IMG/VR virus record: IMGVR_UViG_3300042477_000155
Location: 1 to 23,834 of that record
Origin: a virus
Direction: 5' to 3' (one strand)
DNA length: 23,834 nucleotides
Each line of letters starts with the position of its first letter. The stretch's first letter is position 1. Position numbers and translations under genes: made by a program. Of this stretch, positions 2,964-11,386 are shown one piece after another. The notes under the pieces are model-generated. The model saw nothing but the letters and a program-made list of their open reading frames with translations. It did not search any database and was not told where the DNA came from.

Positions 2964-3935
2964 TTAGTTCGCGTCGTGAATGTCCCACGCAATCCGTGGC
3001 GTGCCGCGCCGTACCCCTGTTCGACTTACCGCAGCCTCCCATCGGGTGTAAAGCCGAATCCATTTTGCCCGAACCGGGGTCGGGCCGACTCCCTTTTCAA
3101 CGATCCACCCGCCCGACCCGTCGCCCCAATCTTTCTTGTAGGTGCCGCAACGGATGAAGTCTGCGTGTCGGGTCCGCACCTCGTACAAGCCGTTCCGTGT
3201 CTCTAGGTACTCCCGTGCGATGCCGACGATGTTCGACTGGTGGTTGTGCCCGACCGCGATGCAGTCCACGCCCTCCACCCATGAGAACATCCGGCGGCTG
3301 TCAAGCACGCCCATCGACATCGGGGCCGATCCGCCGCTGCCGTGGTGATATCGCATCGTCCAAGTCATCCGGCAGTTGTTCACTTGGCAACGAATCTTGA
3401 CCCACCCGCCGTAACCGCCCGCGCCCATCTGACTCGCGGGGTTGTGAACCTTGATCGTTCGGACAAGGTTTGTCGTGGGGCAAGTTTCGTGATGCTTGAG
3501 CCACGCCGATTCGTGATTCCCCTGCCCAAGCACGCACCAGTTCTGCGCGTAGGGCGCGTACTGCTCCGCAGCATCGTCAATCACCTTGTCGAAGTACGCG
3601 GCGGCAAGTTGGCTGGAGCGCAACTGCGACTTGCTCTGTCGCCTGTCCGAAACCCCCTGCATCAAGTCCAGCGTGTCGCCTAGGTCGATGATGATGGCGC
3701 GACGTTCGATGGCCTCATCAAGATGTCGCATCTCCGTTTCCCGGCAATTCTTCGGGTTGTCCGTATGCGCGTCCGAGCGGACCAACACCCATTGCTCCCA
3801 ATTTGACGATACCGGGTCGCAGTCGATGATGTGGATGTTCTTGCCGTGGTGCGATGCCTTGAAAGGCACAGCCGCAGACGAGGGCTTTGCCCTTTGCTTC
3901 GGTGCGGGCTTCGCGTTCCCTCGTCGCTTTGCCAT
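2964..3935 (-). CDS. Calcineurin-like metallophosphoesterase
   Basis: This is a 323-residue protein with the ordered motifs of the family: Asp55-x-His57 in VRSDAHTDN, Gly86-Asp87-x-x-Asp90 in IDLGDTLDLM, Gly139-Asn140-His141-Glu142 in LGQGNHESA, a His pair at 197-198 in RYHHGSGG, and Gly229-His230-x-His232 in AVGHNHQSN. These build the two-metal site that hydrolyses phosphomono- or diesters. The first 25 residues are Lys/Ala/Pro-rich and probably disordered. The ATG has GGAGG 8 bases upstream and lies 3 bases after the Cys-motif gene. The substrate is unknown: nucleic-acid processing or nucleotide-signal cleavage are both possible. The domain call is strong, the role is not. Confidence 0.9.
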   Translation of the reverse strand: MAKRRGNAKPAPKQRAKPSSAAVPFKASHHGKNIHIIDCDPVSSNWEQWVLVRSDAHTDNPKNCRETEMRHLDEAIERRAIIIDLGDTLDLMQGVSDRRQSKSQLRSSQLAAAYFDKVIDDAAEQYAPYAQNWCVLGQGNHESAWLKHHETCPTTNLVRTIKVHNPASQMGAGGYGGWVKIRCQVNNCRMTWTMRYHHGSGGSAPMSMGVLDSRRMFSWVEGVDCIAVGHNHQSNIVGIAREYLETRNGLYEVRTRHADFIRCGTYKKDWGDGSGGWIVEKGVGPTPVRAKWIRLYTRWEAAVSRTGVRRGTPRIAWDIHDAN

Positions 3936-3938
3936 CGG

Positions 3939-4373
3939 TCATCCCTCCGGTTTCGGATCGTCGCCGTTCTTGAACGGCACCAGTTTGTTCAGGGCTTCGC
4001 GCCTTTTCTTGCACCCGCCGCATTCCTTGATGCCGAGCGTCTTGGTGACCTTGGCTACGGCATCGCCAAGTCCTCGCATCCGCGAACCTTCGGACGGCTG
4101 ATCCGTGAGCGCGACCTGCGGCGCGGTCGGCTGGCCTTCGGGCGTGGAGTTCGCTTCGGAGCGAACGGGCTGCACCTTGGCGTTCGGCAACGAAACGAGG
4201 ATCAGCGGAGGATTGGAGTAATCGCCGTTCCGGGCTTCCCGGTGTTCGCACGTTCCGCATCCCGCCATGTCAAGCCCGCGAATGCAGCGCGGAACAAAAT
4301 CCTGCATTTGGCAGGACTTGCAATCAACGACTTCCTTCTCGTAGTTGCCGATGCGCAGTCGGAGCGTGTTCAT
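3939..4373 (-). CDS. Cys-motif protein with C-terminal CGGC signature
   Basis: This is a 144-residue protein. The N-terminal third holds Cys18, Cys21, Cys30, Cys39 and Cys42 (CKSC, then PRC, then CGTC), a likely zinc-binding or iron-sulfur-like cluster. A Pro/Thr/Gln-rich linker (about 55-98) follows. The C-terminus has LGDAVAKVTKTLGIK then Cys118-x-x-Cys121 and KKRREALNKLVPF, a motif I recognise as recurrent in small phage proteins of unknown function. The start overlaps the stop of the cysteine-rich gene by 4 bases (ATGA), so the two are translationally coupled. Metal binding is inferred; the role is unknown. Confidence 0.75.
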   Translation of the reverse strand: MNTLRLRIGNYEKEVVDCKSCQMQDFVPRCIRGLDMAGCGTCEHREARNGDYSNPPLILVSLPNAKVQPVRSEANSTPEGQPTAPQVALTDQPSEGSRMRGLGDAVAKVTKTLGIKECGGCKKRREALNKLVPFKNGDDPKPEG

Positions 4374-6229
4374 GTGAGCGTGATTGTGTTGGCGTTTGTC
4401 TTGCAGAAAATCTTGGGGTCGTAGTACGCCTCATCGCACAATTCGGCGCACTCTCCCACGGGAGTGATTTGGCAATACTCGCAGTCGTTGATCGCAAACT
4501 GAAGCGGGTACGTTCGGCAATCGGTGGAAGGCTGGCACAGCCCGCAGATCGAACTGTACCCGTAGATCAGCACCACCCATGTCTGCGAAACCGGGTCAAA
4601 GATTTCGATGTCGTTGTAGGGCCACACGCTGCCAGCGGACCACGCGATTTCGTCGCATTCGACGTACGCCTGCGGCGGCAGGTTGTCGCCAATGCACCCC
4701 GAAAAGGAGGTTTCGTCCTGCGACACCGGAATCATCTCATACCGCTTGCCGCAGCCGTATTCGGCCGGGGACAGGCAATTCCCGCTGATGGCCGTGTTCA
4801 CCACGTTGCGGACGCTCAACACGGGTTCAAAAATCTGACACGCGCAAACGCGGTAGCGGATGCTCGTCCCCGTCAGGTAAACGCACACCTGCTGCGATGC
4901 CGGAAGAATCTCCGCGTGATCGACATTCAGCGTGTCCCCCGGCGAAAACGGCGGGCGCGGACTCAAATCGAATCCGCAGTCCACGCACGACTGCCTGTAG
5001 CCGAACCAAAAGCACTCGCCCCCGTCACCGAGAGCCGTCGCCGTGATGACGGGATTCAGTCGGGCGTTGATCCGTTGCGCGATGCCGAATGCGTTGCCGC
5101 TCAAGATGTTCAGCGTGTAATCGCAGATTTCCATGCACGGAACCGCCAGCGGTCCCGGGGGCCATTCCGTGTTGATGATGCACGGGTCTTGGTCGGTGAT
5201 CTGCTTGATCGACACCAAGCCCATGTAGAAGTTCCTGACCTGCTCCTGCATCTCGGGGTCTTGCGAAGAAGGATCAAGCCCTTCGTTCTCCGCAAAGCAG
5301 TACGGGAAGCAAATCTTCATCACCTCGGCAACATGGTCCGCGCATCCGGTTTCCATTCCTGACACGACGGAATAGAAGGTGAACAGCGAATGCGACCCGG
5401 TGGGGTCTTCGATGTTGATGCACAGGTCCGGGTCTTGTTCGCAGATATCGCCTTCGATGCAGCAGTAATCAAGGGCGGCAGGACAGTCAGGGCAGACGGC
5501 AGGCGTAGATTCGACTTGCAGGTAAATCCCGGCCTGTTGGTCGGGAATCATCGACTGAATGATCTGCGTGAGGTCGGGGATGCAGATTCCGACGCGCTGT
5601 TCCGCGTCGATTCCCGTCGTTGCGTACGACTCCCTCGGGAAATCGCGGTCGCAGCAGACGCAGTCGCGCCCGGCGGGATTTGGCGAGAACGCGACTCCCC
5701 ATTTCTTGTAGCACGCAGTCATGTTGCTGCGCATGGTCAGCGGGCAACTTTCGTTCGTGCCGAACTGGTCGCACTTGTCGTAGCAGTCGGCCACCGTGTC
5801 TGCGCATATGTCCTGCGGCGGCGTTACGACGGGCTGGCCCTCAACCTCAAGGTTTCCGATGCCCCCGACGGGAACGTGCGTCTGCGGTTCTGCGGAGCAA
5901 CACGGCTGTTCGCCTTGGTCGCGGACGGAAAGGAGCGTCCCCACGTTGATGGGATTCAAGCCCGAACCCGGCGGGCACGGGAACGGCGTTGGGGTAAGCC
6001 CCTTGAGTTCGTACGCGCAGCCCAAATACGAAATGAGGTAGCACTTCGTCGGGTCAAGCGGCACCGGAATGCCGATGAACTCAAGATACGACTCGCAGAA
6101 CTCAATCTGCGGAGGTCCGTCACAGCAGGCAACGTCGCAACACAACAACCCGGAAAACGCGTTGCAACGATCCGCGTAGTACGTCACCCCGGTGACGCAG
6201 CAGCAGGAATATGCCGTGGTTGCGCTCAC
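4370..6229 (-). CDS. Cysteine-rich 619-residue protein, function unknown
   Basis: This protein holds 53 cysteines in 619 residues (8.6 percent). Several are adjacent (Cys9-11, 30-31, 35-36, 110-111, 192-193, 256-257) and others are in CxxC pairs (246/249, 415/418, 562/565, 583/586). It is rich in Asp, Glu, Pro and aromatic residues and poor in Lys. I see no signal peptide, membrane segment or known domain. The start is the GTG whose last two bases overlap the previous stop (GTGA); the open frame continues 27 codons upstream but only over other genes. Many disulfides or many bound metals are possible. It could be a virion part or a protein released at lysis; both are guesses. Confidence 0.85.
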   Translation of the reverse strand: MSATTAYSCCCVTGVTYYADRCNAFSGLLCCDVACCDGPPQIEFCESYLEFIGIPVPLDPTKCYLISYLGCAYELKGLTPTPFPCPPGSGLNPINVGTLLSVRDQGEQPCCSAEPQTHVPVGGIGNLEVEGQPVVTPPQDICADTVADCYDKCDQFGTNESCPLTMRSNMTACYKKWGVAFSPNPAGRDCVCCDRDFPRESYATTGIDAEQRVGICIPDLTQIIQSMIPDQQAGIYLQVESTPAVCPDCPAALDYCCIEGDICEQDPDLCINIEDPTGSHSLFTFYSVVSGMETGCADHVAEVMKICFPYCFAENEGLDPSSQDPEMQEQVRNFYMGLVSIKQITDQDPCIINTEWPPGPLAVPCMEICDYTLNILSGNAFGIAQRINARLNPVITATALGDGGECFWFGYRQSCVDCGFDLSPRPPFSPGDTLNVDHAEILPASQQVCVYLTGTSIRYRVCACQIFEPVLSVRNVVNTAISGNCLSPAEYGCGKRYEMIPVSQDETSFSGCIGDNLPPQAYVECDEIAWSAGSVWPYNDIEIFDPVSQTWVVLIYGYSSICGLCQPSTDCRTYPLQFAINDCEYCQITPVGECAELCDEAYYDPKIFCKTNANTITLT

Positions 6230-6339
6230 AGCATGAATCGCTTGCCGTGCTTGCCCTTCACCCACCAGCCAAGGACGAACCCGGCAACAACACAGAGCGC
6301 GGACCACCACATCGTTCCGAGAGCATCAGCGAGGAGCAT
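6226..6339 (-). CDS. 37-residue single-span membrane protein
   Basis: The protein has an N-terminal MLLADALGTM, one hydrophobic segment rich in Trp (about residues 10-27, WWSALCVVAGFVLGWWV) and a basic tail KGKHGKRFML, so the C-terminus is probably cytoplasmic. AAGGA lies 6 bases before the ATG. It overlaps the end of the lipobox protein by 14 bases and the next gene by 4. Being tiny, single-span and in the lysis-like group, it is a candidate holin/antiholin accessory, but it has no diagnostic feature. Confidence 0.7.
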   Translation of the reverse strand: MLLADALGTMWWSALCVVAGFVLGWWVKGKHGKRFML

Positions 6340-6841
6340 TCTTCTTCCTTTGTTGGGCCTTGCGAAACGCCGCGTCGAACTCCGGGTCACTACGGAGAGC
6401 GGCCACCATCTCCCGATCCCCTTCGGGTCGGTCGGGATCAAGCATATCAACCGCCAGTTCTGCCTGTGCTACTTTGCGACGGGGCAACCACCCCACGGCC
6501 ACCCGGATAAATTGACCAATTCCGCTGAACCACAAAAACACCACGATGGCGATGACGAGCGCGGCCCCGGCCACCCACGCAATCGCCTGCCCCCACCACG
6601 GCGTGACGTTCTGCGTTCCCGGCAGGTAGCCGTGAATCTGCGCCGCCAGCAGGTCAATTCGCTCCGCAGCCTGCACCACCACATCGTCGCCTGTCTCTTT
6701 GCCGTGCAGGAGGAGCATCCGGGCCTCCATGCGTATCTCGTTCGCGCTGCCCGCGATGTTCTGCGTAGCCCCGCATCCGGCGCAACAACTAACGGCGGCG
6801 GTCCACATCCAGTTGGCGTTCAATCTTGTCAAGCCGCGCAT
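6326..6841 (-). CDS. Lipobox plus membrane-span protein, candidate unimolecular spanin
   Basis: This is a 171-residue protein. The N-terminus MRGLTRLNANWMWTAAVS leads into Cys19, Cys20, Ala, Gly, Cys23; AVSC or CAGC could serve as a lipobox, though neither has the usual Leu at -3. Residues 30-75 are helical and polar. A strong hydrophobic segment spans about 86-106 (AIAWVAGAALVIAIVVFLWF), followed by a basic-then-acidic tail of about 60 residues. Lipid anchor at one end and membrane span later is the plan of a u-spanin, which fuses inner and outer membranes at lysis. The long tail is atypical. The start at 6841 is preferred over Met12 because AGGAG lies 7 bases upstream. Confidence 0.7.
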   Translation of the reverse strand: MRGLTRLNANWMWTAAVSCCAGCGATQNIAGSANEIRMEARMLLLHGKETGDDVVVQAAERIDLLAAQIHGYLPGTQNVTPWWGQAIAWVAGAALVIAIVVFLWFSGIGQFIRVAVGWLPRRKVAQAELAVDMLDPDRPEGDREMVAALRSDPEFDAAFRKAQQRKKNAPR

Positions 6842-6995
6842 TGATGCTCTCCTGTTGGGTCACCAATCGCATCAGCAAGCGGTCATGGTGCAAGAACGCT
6901 CCAATCACACCACCGCTTACGGTCACGACAACGGCAATGATTGCAACCCAATCGCGCACGGACAGTTTTACGATGTTGTTCCGCTCTAAAGTCAT
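6789..6995 (-). CDS. Small membrane protein with coiled-coil tail, candidate holin
   Basis: This is a 68-residue protein. A hydrophobic stretch at about 15-35 (DWVAIIAVVVTVSGGVIGAF) is followed by a charged helix with heptad spacing (LLMRLVTQQESINARLDKIE). The plan of one membrane segment plus a short coiled coil occurs in phage holins of the XhlA-like kind and in inner-membrane spanin subunits. It begins 4 bases after the second tailspike gene and has no clear ribosome site, so it is likely coupled to it. It overlaps the lipobox gene by 53 bases in another frame. Holin is the best guess from position and topology. Confidence 0.75.
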   Translation of the reverse strand: MTLERNNIVKLSVRDWVAIIAVVVTVSGGVIGAFLHHDRLLMRLVTQQESINARLDKIERQLDVDRRR

Positions 6996-6999
6996 GTTG

Positions 7000-8742
7000 T
7001 CAGACCAATGGAGGCACTACCGAGTTTGAATGCCAATGCCCATTATTGTTGATCGCCAACTTCCAATGTTCGTGTCCCAAGTTCTCTGACTTCATCAACA
7101 TGAAGTGTGCCCGAAAACTATTGCTTGAGTCAAGTTCTTCGCCAATGATGAACAACCCCCCATCGGCATCTGCCCCGGCCTTCCGACGAATCTGATTGGT
7201 GATCCGACTACCAATTCCGCCCGTGGTAAGATAGAAATTGTTGACAAGCACCTTATGCGAAGTGTGATAGTGAATCAGGGTCGTAGTGGGTGAAGTGCCG
7301 CCGAACCCACCGAACTCCATGCTGTTGATCGTGATGTTCACGGCGTTGTCAATGTCAAGCGCGTGAGTCGATGGCCCGCTTGGATGCGAGATGGCCGTGG
7401 CTGGCCCAACCAAGAACGGGGAGTTGAACGTAATGCTCCGACACAATTCAGGCAATGCACGATTGCCAAGTTGAATGGGCAGCACCACGTTCTCAAAATA
7501 CGGGGAGTTGATCGTCCATCCGCCGTAATCAACCCCGTAGAGAGCCATACCAACTACGCCGCCTTGACAACACACGTTGGACAACGTCGAGCCAGTTCCC
7601 GAAATCGGAGCAACCGGGTTGTACGGGCTGACGCTGCCCGCATTCGTTTTCTGCGACAGGAAATTGAAGTTGCAGAAGTTTGACGTATAGAGCGTGTCCA
7701 AGTGGTTGGCATTGAAATCCCGCGCCGCCCAAAAACACGCGTTGCTGATGGTGGACCCCTCGGTGGACAGCCGATGGAACGTGCAGCCGAACGATCCATC
7801 CACGACGAACCCGTTAGTGCACGTTGCGTTGCGAACGTTCACGTTGGACATGCCGCCAAAAATTGCGCACGACCATACGACGGCATGATTGAACGTGCCT
7901 GAAATCGTCACATCTTTGAGGAACTGATACGACCGGAACGTGCCCGTAAACGCGCCAACAAACGTCGTGACAACCGCGCCTGTCACGGAATCCGCTTGAA
8001 TGATCGTTCCCGCGCCGCTGCCGCGAAGCGTCTTTCCGTTCGGAATCTCAATCGTTGATGTGACCCGATAGGTTCCTTCCGGCAGATACACGGTCTTGGC
8101 GTTGCTTGCCAACGCAAGCGCAATGGCCGCGCCGTCGTTGGCAACACCATCTCCCACAGCCCCGAAGTTCTTGACGCTGGCGACATCATCAAGGCGGCTT
8201 GCCACCGTTCGCGTCACGGCTCCGCTTCCCGTAGATGTGTAATTCACCAACGAGGCATCGGATACAAGACTTGCAACAGGAACGTGATCCCATTGAGAAC
8301 CGTTGAACTGCCACACATCTCCGACCGCAGGAAGGGACGAATTGATTGGTTGAGTTGCAAATAATCCGGCGTTCGCCGTGATGGTGTTGGCCGGAACGTG
8401 CGACCATTGCAACCCCGTAAATTGCCAAACATCCCCGATGCTTGGCGTAGCCGTGTCGATGTTGGACGAAGCCAACCTTGACACGGTTGGGTTCGGATAG
8501 GTTCCCGACAGATCGCCCGCCGCCGATCCTGATGGGTTTCTTGCGTTTGACAAGCGCACATCCGTTGCGCCGACGAGTTGCGTGGCCGATCCGCCTCCGC
8601 TCGGAGCAATATCCGCAGCGATGGTTCCAGCCTGCGTGATAGTGCCGCCCGTCAGCCCTGTGCCTGCCGTAATGCTGGTGACGGTGCCCGACGCAAGGGT
8701 TACGCCAATGTTGTTCGTCGTGACGATGACCTCTGCGCTCAT
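7000..8742 (-). CDS. Tailspike/tail fibre 2 with Pectate_lyase_3-type beta-helix
   Basis: This is a 580-residue protein. Residues 1-90 are about 78 percent identical to the first tailspike and probably anchor it to the tail. Residues 98-116 and 136-154 are two copies of a 38-residue-spaced repeat (GDVWQFxGxQWxHVP). Residues 189-215 carry SVKNFGAVGDGVANDGAAI, the N-terminal signature of Pectate_lyase_3 beta-helices, followed by many short Asn/Val/Phe strands typical of a right-handed helix. It would recognise or degrade a surface glycan. AAGGA lies 5 bases before the ATG. The gene is AT-richer than the capsid genes, consistent with exchange of receptor-binding genes between phages. Confidence 0.9.
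   Translation of the reverse strand: MSAEVIVTTNNIGVTLASGTVTSITAGTGLTGGTITQAGTIAADIAPSGGGSATQLVGATDVRLSNARNPSGSAAGDLSGTYPNPTVSRLASSNIDTATPSIGDVWQFTGLQWSHVPANTITANAGLFATQPINSSLPAVGDVWQFNGSQWDHVPVASLVSDASLVNYTSTGSGAVTRTVASRLDDVASVKNFGAVGDGVANDGAAIALALASNAKTVYLPEGTYRVTSTIEIPNGKTLRGSGAGTIIQADSVTGAVVTTFVGAFTGTFRSYQFLKDVTISGTFNHAVVWSCAIFGGMSNVNVRNATCTNGFVVDGSFGCTFHRLSTEGSTISNACFWAARDFNANHLDTLYTSNFCNFNFLSQKTNAGSVSPYNPVAPISGTGSTLSNVCCQGGVVGMALYGVDYGGWTINSPYFENVVLPIQLGNRALPELCRSITFNSPFLVGPATAISHPSGPSTHALDIDNAVNITINSMEFGGFGGTSPTTTLIHYHTSHKVLVNNFYLTTGGIGSRITNQIRRKAGADADGGLFIIGEELDSSNSFRAHFMLMKSENLGHEHWKLAINNNGHWHSNSVVPPLV
8173..8742 (-). repeat. Paralogous tailspike N-terminal module, copy 2
   Basis: Codons 1-190 of the second tailspike align without gaps to codons 1-190 of the first (10482-11051). 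Both contain two internal 38-residue units. The bodies after the GDG motif are unrelated by eye. Confidence 0.8.
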
Positions 8743-8819
8743 TCTGTTCCTTTGTGCGATGGACGCATATTGTCTACTCGCTTTACTTCCGAACTACCCA
8801 CGTTTCCCTTGTCAAAATG

Positions 8820-11051
8820 TCAGACGGACGTTGTCTCCACATAGACAGTTCCGGCGGCAGCGGTGTTGATATTGTCTTGCCAAATGCGCACATAGACGCC
8901 GTCGGCGGTAAAGGTGCCGGACGGAACCACGATTTCGCTCACAAACGGCACGGTCGGAATCGGGGCATTGATCGTTATGGTTGTTCCGATTTGGGTAGTC
9001 AGCCCAACGTCTGCAAAAGCGTCGATCCTCACTTGCGTGGTGCCGACAAGAAAGCCCGTAAATACGATTCGGATTTTGTCCACCAACACTCGTTGCCCAA
9101 ATACCGAAACAGCGTGCGTTGTTGCTCCGTTTGGGAAAACCCCCGACCCGCTGCACAACAAACCGTTGTCGTTCTTGGAATTGATGTTTTTGACATCGCG
9201 CCCGCTGGCTGACGATGCTAGATTGTTGATCGTTCCGGGTCCACGCAAGCAGATATTCGGGACATCCCTGCAACTCTCAAACGTAACGGGGATGTGCTGT
9301 GTATACGCGTTGCCCGTATTACCGATCCTTGTAATCGTTGTGCTCGGAGCACCCGCAAGGTTCCTGAACCGCACCCACGCGGCAGAAAAATTCGACAATC
9401 CAAGTTCGGCCTTTGTGCGGATTTTGCAATCCGTCCAAAGCCCCCCGTCGCAATCCAGCGTCATCAACCCGCCTTGCAAATCAAATTGGAACACCGAAGG
9501 ATCGGGACTGCCACCCGCGATGCCTGATTGCCGAAACTGAATATGAACTTCGTTGTTTGCAGACACCGTTGGAGCATCTTCGACCACCACGATTTGGGTC
9601 GTTCCTCCAGTTGGCTGCGGCCAAAACTCAAACTTGGTGTTTTCGACGTTGTATTGCGAGTTCGTGCCCACCAACGTCGCGTCATAGGCCAAATACAGGA
9701 ATACGCCTTTTTGAACAAGGTCGCAATTTGAAATGCGCGTCCATCCACATCCCGAGATGTCAAATACTCGCGTGATGTCTCCGTACATGGTGCAGCCGTT
9801 GAACTCGTTGATGATGGCTTGCGAGTTCCGCGCATAGAACAGCGTCGTACATTCCTCAAACCAACAGTTGTTGAACCGGAAGGTGTCGTTGTTGATGACC
9901 CCAAGGATGTTGAACACCCGATGAAAATTGCGGGTCCAGCAATTTTCCATCAAAAACAACTTTCCGCCGTTGTTGGGATCAAGATTGAATCCGTTGCTCG
10001 TCCACGCGCCTCTCGGAGATGCCGTGTTGTTCACAAATCCCATGTCGCGGAAGGACACGCAGATATGAGGCCCAAAATTGACCATATTGCCCGTGTCGGG
10101 CGTGTACGAAATCACGCTTGCAAATGGCCCATCGCCGTAGAACATCAAGGAAATTGCTGACGCAGTCCCGGTTCCAACACCACTAGAACAAAGCACAGAC
10201 TCGTTCGTTACATACACACCACGCGGAACGTAAATGCGGCCGAGTCCCCATCCTGTGAGAGATGGTCCGCCTGCCGACGGGGGATTTATTCGCGCGCTGC
10301 TGTACGTCAATATGGCTTTGTTTATGGCGGCAAGATCAGCCGAATACGCCCCGCTTGTGACAAACGGATAATCCACCTGAACCGCTGCCAAGTTTGCATA
10401 GCCGCGATACTGCGGCGATGCAGGCGTATACCACTCCGAAACAGTGTGCAGCGTGCCGTCCCCAATCGCTCCGAAATCTTTGATGCTCAAGACTTCGCTG
10501 AACTTTGCTTGCGCCGTGCGTGTTGCTGCGCCGTTTGTCGGATAGGCGTACGCAATCAGAGTTGCGTTAGTCGGGATTTGGCTTGGCGGAACATGCTCCC
10601 ATTGCGTTCCCGAATACGCCAAAATGTCCCCTGCGCTCGGCGCAGAAACATCCAAGGCAACGCCTGCCAATGATGTCGCGTTGGCTGCAAGGGTGTTTTG
10701 CGCGACATGATTCCATTGACTTCCCGAATACACCCATACGTCCCCGGTCACGGGACTGCTTGTGTCTACGGGCTGCGTTGCAATTCGTTCCACGGTTGGC
10801 GTTGGGTACGACCCCGACAAATCGCCTGCAGCGGCTCCCGAAGGAGTCCTTGCGTTTGACAACCGCAAATCCGTGGCACCAACAAGTTGCGTGGCTGTTC
10901 CGCCGCCGTTTGGCGCAAAATCCGCCGCAATCGTTCCGGCTTGTGTGATTGTTCCGCCCGTCAGTCCTGCGCCTGCAGTGATGCTGTTGACGGTTCCTGT
11001 CGCAATCGTGATTCCGATGCTATTGATCGAAACGGTGATTTCCGCACTCAT
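8820..11051 (-). CDS. Tailspike/tail fibre 1 with Pectate_lyase_3-type beta-helix
   Basis: This is a 743-residue protein. Residues 1-90 form the anchor module shared with tailspike 2; 98-116 and 136-154 are a repeat pair (GDVWVYSGSQWNHV and GDILAYSGTQWEHV). Residues 189-250 hold SIKDFGAIGDGTLHTVSEW, then YRGYANLAAVQVDYPFVTSG and a D-x-AAINKAI helix: the variant Pectate_lyase_3 entry in which an insert separates GDG from the acidic helix. A beta-helix of about 400 residues follows, and the last 90 residues look like a separate beta-sandwich. The ATG at 11051 overlaps the previous stop (ATGA), with AAAGG 7 bases upstream. It probably binds or cleaves host polysaccharide. Confidence 0.9.
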   Translation of the reverse strand: MSAEITVSINSIGITIATGTVNSITAGAGLTGGTITQAGTIAADFAPNGGGTATQLVGATDLRLSNARTPSGAAAGDLSGSYPTPTVERIATQPVDTSSPVTGDVWVYSGSQWNHVAQNTLAANATSLAGVALDVSAPSAGDILAYSGTQWEHVPPSQIPTNATLIAYAYPTNGAATRTAQAKFSEVLSIKDFGAIGDGTLHTVSEWYTPASPQYRGYANLAAVQVDYPFVTSGAYSADLAAINKAILTYSSARINPPSAGGPSLTGWGLGRIYVPRGVYVTNESVLCSSGVGTGTASAISLMFYGDGPFASVISYTPDTGNMVNFGPHICVSFRDMGFVNNTASPRGAWTSNGFNLDPNNGGKLFLMENCWTRNFHRVFNILGVINNDTFRFNNCWFEECTTLFYARNSQAIINEFNGCTMYGDITRVFDISGCGWTRISNCDLVQKGVFLYLAYDATLVGTNSQYNVENTKFEFWPQPTGGTTQIVVVEDAPTVSANNEVHIQFRQSGIAGGSPDPSVFQFDLQGGLMTLDCDGGLWTDCKIRTKAELGLSNFSAAWVRFRNLAGAPSTTITRIGNTGNAYTQHIPVTFESCRDVPNICLRGPGTINNLASSASGRDVKNINSKNDNGLLCSGSGVFPNGATTHAVSVFGQRVLVDKIRIVFTGFLVGTTQVRIDAFADVGLTTQIGTTITINAPIPTVPFVSEIVVPSGTFTADGVYVRIWQDNINTAAAGTVYVETTSV
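10482..11051 (-). repeat. Paralogous tailspike N-terminal module, copy 1
   Basis: This is the counterpart of 8173-8742. In the first 90 residues I count 20 differences, so about 78 percent identity; the DNA also aligns visibly. Confidence 0.8.
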
Positions 11052-11386
11052 GCGCCAACCTTTGGGTTGACCTGTGCCTGCCCGTTCTCGTAGTACCGTC
11101 GCACAATCCCGCCTGCCCATTCAACCTCAAAATCGAATCGGCAATTGCCCGTCGGGAAGGTCGCGGTGGTCGCCGCCGGAACCACCAACTTCTTGATTCC
11201 TGTCGTGGGCGGGACAATATCCACGATCATTCCATTGGTAATGGTCGCGTCCAAAAACGGAACCGCGTTTGGTTGCGCAACTCGCACACGCCAGTTCGTT
11301 GCTGTTGCAATATCGGTTATTCCCGACAAAGCAATCTGCTGCTCGTAGGTCGCGCCCTTCAGAAAGAGAATCTGCCACTTGTCCAT
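11048..11386 (-). CDS. Small tail-tip connector or fibre-adaptor protein
   Basis: This 112-residue protein begins MDKWQILFLKGATYEQQI and is predicted mostly beta, with alternating polar and hydrophobic residues (ATNWRVRVAQ, RFDFEVEWAGGIVRRYYEN). Proteins of this size and style often lie just before the fibre gene and form the baseplate site on which fibres dock, like the N-terminal part of BppU-type proteins. GGAGG lies 4 bases before the ATG, and the stop overlaps the tailspike start by 4 bases. The assignment is by position and secondary-structure pattern only. Confidence 0.7.
   Translation of the reverse strand: MDKWQILFLKGATYEQQIALSGITDIATATNWRVRVAQPNAVPFLDATITNGMIVDIVPPTTGIKKLVVPAATTATFPTGNCRFDFEVEWAGGIVRRYYENGQAQVNPKVGA

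Follow-up and report, generated by a model that had tools for sequence, protein, structure and literature searches.

Analysis of a 23,834-nucleotide stretch of viral DNA (IMG/VR record IMGVR_UViG_3300042477_000155, positions 1 to 23,834; hereafter the window) identifies a cysteine-rich protein, CysR, as one half of a widespread and apparently undescribed two-gene module, a finding larger than one odd protein. In about 70 uncultivated phage contigs a long Cys-rich protein of 161–1297 aa is encoded beside a small partner with predicted zinc-binding motifs. The informative features of the module are a CCC triplet near the N-terminus of the Cys-rich protein, the conserved positions of its cysteines and the partner gene. 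We propose, with confidence that is about evenly balanced, that CysR is a disulfide-stabilised, fibre- or adhesin-like protein of the virion surface, attached by its Cys-rich N-terminus and served by a dedicated folding or attachment partner.

The cysteine-rich gene and its partner

CysR is read from a GTG start at 6229 to a stop at 4370–4372 (Table 1), and the plus-strand frame over the same interval is interrupted by a stop. The start is backed by the homologue L013, which has an ATG at the same place, and by a GTGA overlap with the stop codon of an upstream membrane-like gene of 37 aa (6226-6339, the one among the small membrane genes that overlaps CysR); the start of the partner in turn overlaps the CysR stop as ATGA. 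The preliminary description of this DNA, which had singled out a 619-residue protein with 53 cysteines coupled to another Cys-motif protein, is thereby borne out. It had also called the cysteine content extreme, and rightly so: cysteine makes up 8.6 % of CysR (with 10 Lys, 1.6 %, and 4 His, 0.6 %) against 0-4.8 %, with a median of about 1 %, in the remaining called genes of the window, and at a background of 1.1 % the probability of at least 53 cysteines is about 7e-30. The scarcity of lysine that it remarked upon is genuine but not distinctive, such a content being normal among the structural proteins of this phage. A hydrophobic stretch was looked for at the N-terminus of CysR and none was found, in agreement with the earlier statement that it has no signal peptide.

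Table 1. Positions in the window of CysR, its partner and neighbouring genes
Feature	Positions	Strand	Remarks
Partner protein	3939..4373	minus	144 aa, 7 Cys, pI 8.7; pairing recurs in all relatives
Partner C-terminal motif RGLGDAVAKVTKTLGIKECGGCKKRREALNKLVPF	3972..4082	minus	phrog_32048; over 500 viral contigs
Partner N-terminal Cys motif DCkSC...C..GLD.aGCgTC..R	4239..4325	minus	seen in alignments; common to podophage-type partner
CysR (Cys-rich protein)	4370..6229	minus	619 aa, 53 Cys, pI 4.05, GTG start
Cys449 of CysR	4883..4885	minus	absent in all five relatives (C to F)
Cys307 of CysR	5309..5311	minus	absent in all five relatives (C to R)
CysR N-terminal domain, residues 1-113	5891..6229	minus	sole part in common with distant podophage-type relatives (31-36 % identity)
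CCC, residues 9-11 of CysR	6197..6205	minus	signature common to otherwise unrelated CysR proteins
Small membrane or possible lysis genes upstream of CysR	6226..6995 (6789-6995, 6326-6841, 6226-6339)	minus	weak holin-like match, E = 0.087
Two tailspike genes upstream of CysR	7000..11060	minus	one with a pectate-lyase-like domain; virion-gene context

Conservation of the cysteines and exchange of the C-terminal part

Full-length homologues of CysR are present on five further contigs at about 57 % identity, along with one more that is truncated, and in each close relative the partner gene lies directly downstream. Across the five, 51 of the 53 cysteines are invariant (P about 1e-11), cysteine being kept as strictly as tryptophan (6/6) and far more strictly than glycine or proline. 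The two exceptions, Cys307 and Cys449, are both missing in all five relatives, consistent with the gain or loss of a single disulfide. Among other Cys-rich proteins of the module, L021 and L022 keep 34/34 cysteines at 62 % identity, L080, L084 and L085 keep 17/17 at 71-80 %, and L068 and L082 have 50 in common (out of 55 and 51, respectively) at 49 %. Within the window's own group, and counter to the proposal, the N-terminal domain is 69 % identical as against 52-59 % for the C-terminal part, which is not much more variable, and separate tailspikes diverge more than CysR does (about 30 %).

Profile searches recovered a distant, podophage-type group (L021, L022, L024 and L036; 460–479 aa, 34–36 Cys), which resembles the window protein over the first 110 residues only (31–36 %). 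Its partner has the window-type N-terminal motif (DC.S…C..GLD.aGCgTC..R) in common and differs at the C-terminal end, which carries a zinc-ribbon-like CxxC…CxxCGC…CPKGKW. Between L021 and L022, residues 1-114 of CysR are 89 % identical as opposed to 46-59 % in the C-terminal part; its residues 115-350 are 46-57 % identical, and their synonymous divergence is saturated. The partner and the genes in the adaptor and nozzle positions (named by gene order only, without a PHROGs match) are 93-97 % identical, with dS of 0.25-0.42. A saturated distal part beside near-identical neighbours, with every cysteine kept, indicates that the distal part was evidently exchanged within a fixed framework; the C-terminal part of CysR has thus been replaced at least once.

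Survey of the two-gene module

Two scans were seeded from partners found via the window's family, and their sample is confined to Cys-rich phage proteins that have such a partner. The type A scan used the CPKGKW-type partner as query and found 54 contigs; the type B scan used the window's own C-terminal motif (GLGDTVAK…CGGCKKRQ…LN) and found 503, of which 80 were kept. Type A partners keep CxxC...CxxCGC...C and the window-type partner keeps CGGC together with the N-terminal DCkSC...C...CgTC, and by these zinc-ribbon-like motifs the partner is predicted to bind zinc. In type A, 32 of 37 distinct cases have a Cys-rich gene (≥3.5 %) just upstream of the partner, the upstream genes having a median of 7.2 % Cys versus 1.2 % in other genes. 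Of the five exceptions, L060, L068 and L071 are mistakes of gene calling, as a Cys-rich ORF is present there, and the other two (L097, L100) are true negatives with weak partner matches. In type B the upstream gene is Cys-rich in 33 of 57; among the others are small stand-alone motif genes that follow a major capsid gene, and hence this motif is not exclusive to the module.

These stand-alone genes (53-56 aa; GLGDTVAKV...CGC.KRQ..LNkLVPY) follow a recurrent capsid-type gene in many contigs (L141-L175, e.g. L141 3965-4132) and carry the same motif as the C-terminus of the window's partner; in L141 the preceding gene is a major head protein by PHROGs. The two C-terminal motifs of the partner proteins are contained in phrog_13558 and phrog_32048, PHROGs with no named function and silent on a Cys-rich neighbour, and motifs of the phrog_32048 type are also encountered on their own, for example directly behind the major capsid gene and in Nonlabens phage P12024S. 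The type-B motif further lies at the N-terminal end of much longer ORFs of 331-508 aa (L108 3959-5485, L111 3890-5101, L115 3875-5008, L169 3115-4110), given which partner fusions may exist.

The surveys yielded 73 Cys-rich proteins (L133, L146 and L160 being doubtful members) that fall into 40 BLAST clusters, mutually unrelated by BLAST. In all 65 pairs tested the start of the partner is no more than 30 nt away from the stop of the Cys-rich gene, and 34 have an exact ATGA overlap. CCC lies within the first 60 residues of 40 of 65 Cys-rich proteins versus 1.2 expected (by survey set, 23/32 versus 0.76 and 17/33 versus 0.48 expected from shuffling), and is absent from some Cys-rich loci. The median pI is 4.4 for the Cys-rich protein and 9.1 for the partner, an acidic/basic combination being seen in 53 of 64 pairs. 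The Cys-rich proteins contain more Pro, Tyr and Trp than their neighbours do and less Lys; their His content (1.2 % pooled) is no higher.

Gene neighbourhood

A sibling contig of 35,978 bases carries terminase and portal genes, which identifies the window virus as a tailed phage. In the window the module comes after two tailspikes and the small membrane genes; in L037, L047, L073 and L087 it comes after tape-measure proteins (PHROGs matches), in L050 and L093 it has tail-fibre genes carrying Mtd_N or collagen domains as neighbours, and in the L021 group it belongs, by gene order, to a podophage-like late operon. In L081, from a T4-like phage, it falls within a head cluster, where the portal (E 1e-75) lies to one side of it and the head protease (E 4e-75) to the other; a tail-tip role is therefore not general. 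The common denominator of these positions is the virion-gene region, with no single fixed tail position.

Several other genes in these neighbourhoods deserve mention. The window tailspikes (8820-11060 and 7000-8742, minus strand) begin with closely similar N-terminal repeats (MSAE.TV..N.IG.T.A.GTV.SITAGTGLTGGTITQAGTIAAD.AP.GGG.ATQLVGATD.RLSNAR) and are different afterwards, as if duplicated and then diversified. In L081 the T4-like portal gene and the Cys-rich gene are separated by a gene of 701 aa (778-2883) with repeat-like sequence and a sub-threshold collagen match, an insertion that is unusual for a cluster of head genes. Short lipoprotein-like genes (..C[SN]R[TA]V.[VI]..) occur just before the Cys-rich gene in L064 (3538-3828), L088 (3351-3653) and L093 (3358-3696), and are possibly outer spanins paralleling the lysis-like genes of the window. 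The window's group and several unrelated phages alike have, downstream of the pair, a gene for a calcineurin-like phosphoesterase (window 2964-3935, minus strand; L010 17232-18134; L073 7184-7951; L042 1154-1930; L177 6009-6872), recognised by Pfam Metallophos in L073, by a DNA-repair exonuclease-like PHROG in the window and also by a pattern search; this gene may belong to the module as its third member.

Searches for known families and folds

Among the CysR proteins scanned, Pfam gave no match above the gathering cut-off and no fibre, spike or lectin domain, and PHROGs gave no match; an NCBIfam scan of the window protein, and phmmer and hmmsearch against the PDB with that protein and its alignment, returned nothing usable. 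A match to the phosphatidylserine decarboxylase N-terminal family (PF12588) scored 19.3 bits, under the cut-off of 23.4, and was taken as chance, and LamG-like domains considered in L130, L131, L142 and L169 were given no support by Pfam. Only the CysR of L110 hints at a binding domain, by a single weak CBM match that stays below threshold. AlphaFold modelled full-length CysR with a pLDDT of 30, too poor to name a fold, and the N-terminal domain alone with a pLDDT of 61; Foldseek matched the latter model to nothing in the PDB or BFVD. With no confident family or fold from profile or structure-based searches, the view of the preliminary description that this protein belongs to no recognised family and is a candidate for an undescribed system is indirectly supported.

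A tblastn search of 50,697 phage records found no CysR homologue in cultured phages, and scans of a bacterial and archaeal genome collection found no relatives. The type-B partner motif is present in only six cultured phage records, and the three of these regions that were inspected show no Cys-rich neighbour by annotation. A description of the pair was not found in the one open-access library searched, where only papers on Agrobacterium phage Milano proved relevant.

Proposed function and comparison with known systems

Tail fibre or spike genes followed by the gene of an assembly chaperone are known from T4, Mu and other phages. The present module is like such pairs in combining a large, variable protein, its N-terminus clearly the more conserved part in L021 and L022 and weakly so in the window's group, with a small overlapping gene downstream, and in its spike, fibre and tape-measure neighbours; it is unlike them in that its sequences resemble no family of fibres or chaperones and in the Cys motifs of its partner. 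To our knowledge, both the Cys-richness and the N-terminal CCC are foreign to known fibres. The kind of system most resembled, a surface protein of the virion that is stabilised by disulfides and has an assembly partner, is already known; new, as far as these tools show, are the family, its CCC signature and the pairing.

That the cysteines are conserved while the rest of this acidic, Pro/Tyr/Trp-rich protein diverges, and that their spacing is not of a metal type, speaks for intramolecular disulfides that form outside the reducing cytoplasm. The common N-terminal CCC, taken together with the exchange of distal parts, points to one end that is shared and docks and another that is exposed and varies. 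A partner that is basic, bears Cys motifs and is translationally coupled fits an assembly or attachment factor. We accordingly picture CysR as probably exposed on the virion. Its N-terminal domain with CCC would dock on the particle; the rest would be a fibre- or adhesin-like part, distal and quick to diverge, which could serve in receptor or surface binding and would be shaped by many disulfides formed after exit from the reducing cytoplasm. The small basic partner, translated from its overlapping start, probably binds reduced CysR during assembly as a folding or attachment factor; alternatively, it could be a small structural linker that fixes CysR to the particle. The suggestion of a disulfide-rich virion protein in the preliminary description gains indirect support from the near-invariant cysteines in a diverging sequence and from homologous modules inside virion-gene clusters, from which we infer the disulfides and the virion location. 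Tentatively, as a possibility we would not yet call probable, the modules may together constitute an unrecognised virion-surface system of uncultivated podo-, sipho- and T4-like phages, in which hypervariable, disulfide-scaffolded binders of unrelated sequence have a common CCC anchor handled by a zinc-motif partner, forming an interchangeable adhesin slot.

Instead of binding the host, CysR might be a covalent cement that cross-links virion parts by disulfides, as in a collar, sheath or decoration, and the closest parallel is Milano, whose virions are cross-linked and reportedly stabilised by disulfides (PMC10811340, PMC10491603). There, an N-terminal cysteine of the fibre is bound to the baseplate, and N-terminal cysteines of fibre and capsid-linker form inter-chain disulfides with other virion proteins, a precedent for disulfide collars and linkers (PMC10811340, PMC10491603). 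CysR is like these in being a Cys-enriched and, as predicted from its gene neighbourhood, virion protein, and the very high number of its cysteines, their rank as the most conserved residue after tryptophan and the module inside the L081 head genes also speak for cement. In Milano, however, cysteine averages 2.1-2.4 % and is spread over many structural proteins (PMC10811340, PMC10491603), whereas in the window it is concentrated in one protein and the other structural proteins have only 0-1.9 %, which leaves few cross-linking partners; a zinc-motif partner gene is moreover without mention in the Milano passages considered. Since the C-terminal replacement between L021 and L022 and the range of unrelated sequences also fit a host-facing part better, we consider cement unlikely.

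A product outside the virion, whether set free by lysis, in line with the released protein that the preliminary description had suggested, or active inside the cell as a sulfur or redox buffer or an effector, and merely encoded in the late region, would suit the place of CysR after small lysis-like membrane genes, its lack of a signal peptide and the phosphoesterase-type, non-structural gene nearby. Against it stand the tape-measure, fibre and head genes that neighbour the module across phage types, the very stable cysteine framework, and the N-terminal CCC and strict pairing, which suggest assembly into something; we find this distinctly unlikely.

It is more improbable still that CysR is a zinc or iron-sulfur scaffold or metal sink loaded by the partner, as the preliminary description had entertained. 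The motifs of the partner would be in keeping with this, and cysteine conservation alone cannot tell disulfides from metal sites. However, the recurring CC and CxxC pairs once cited as evidence are at chance level, both in CysR (7 CC and 5 CxxC versus 4.5 of each expected from shuffles) and for CxC, CC and CxxC pooled over 40 clusters (z 0.7-1.3); histidine is low; and a large, fast-diverging protein with a conserved N-terminal region, in a family reaching 1297 aa, is unlike metallothioneins. A spurious ORF or composition artefact, for which open frames on the other strand could be adduced, is refuted by conservation, as the relatives at 57 % identity show a dN/dS of 0.2, conserved length and retained cysteines, and the opposite frames are 14-16 % Arg.

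Ordinary homology searches fail for the Cys-rich proteins because these share almost no sequence, and the partner motifs provide a practical handle for finding them in metagenomes. If the proposal of a disulfide-stabilised surface protein with its own partner is true, a widespread class of virion proteins now annotated as "hypothetical" would be host-facing, stabilised by disulfides and held by a covalent or metal-assisted N-terminal anchor, which raises the question of how phages produce dozens of cysteines, prevent their oxidation in the cytoplasm and then oxidise them in the particle.
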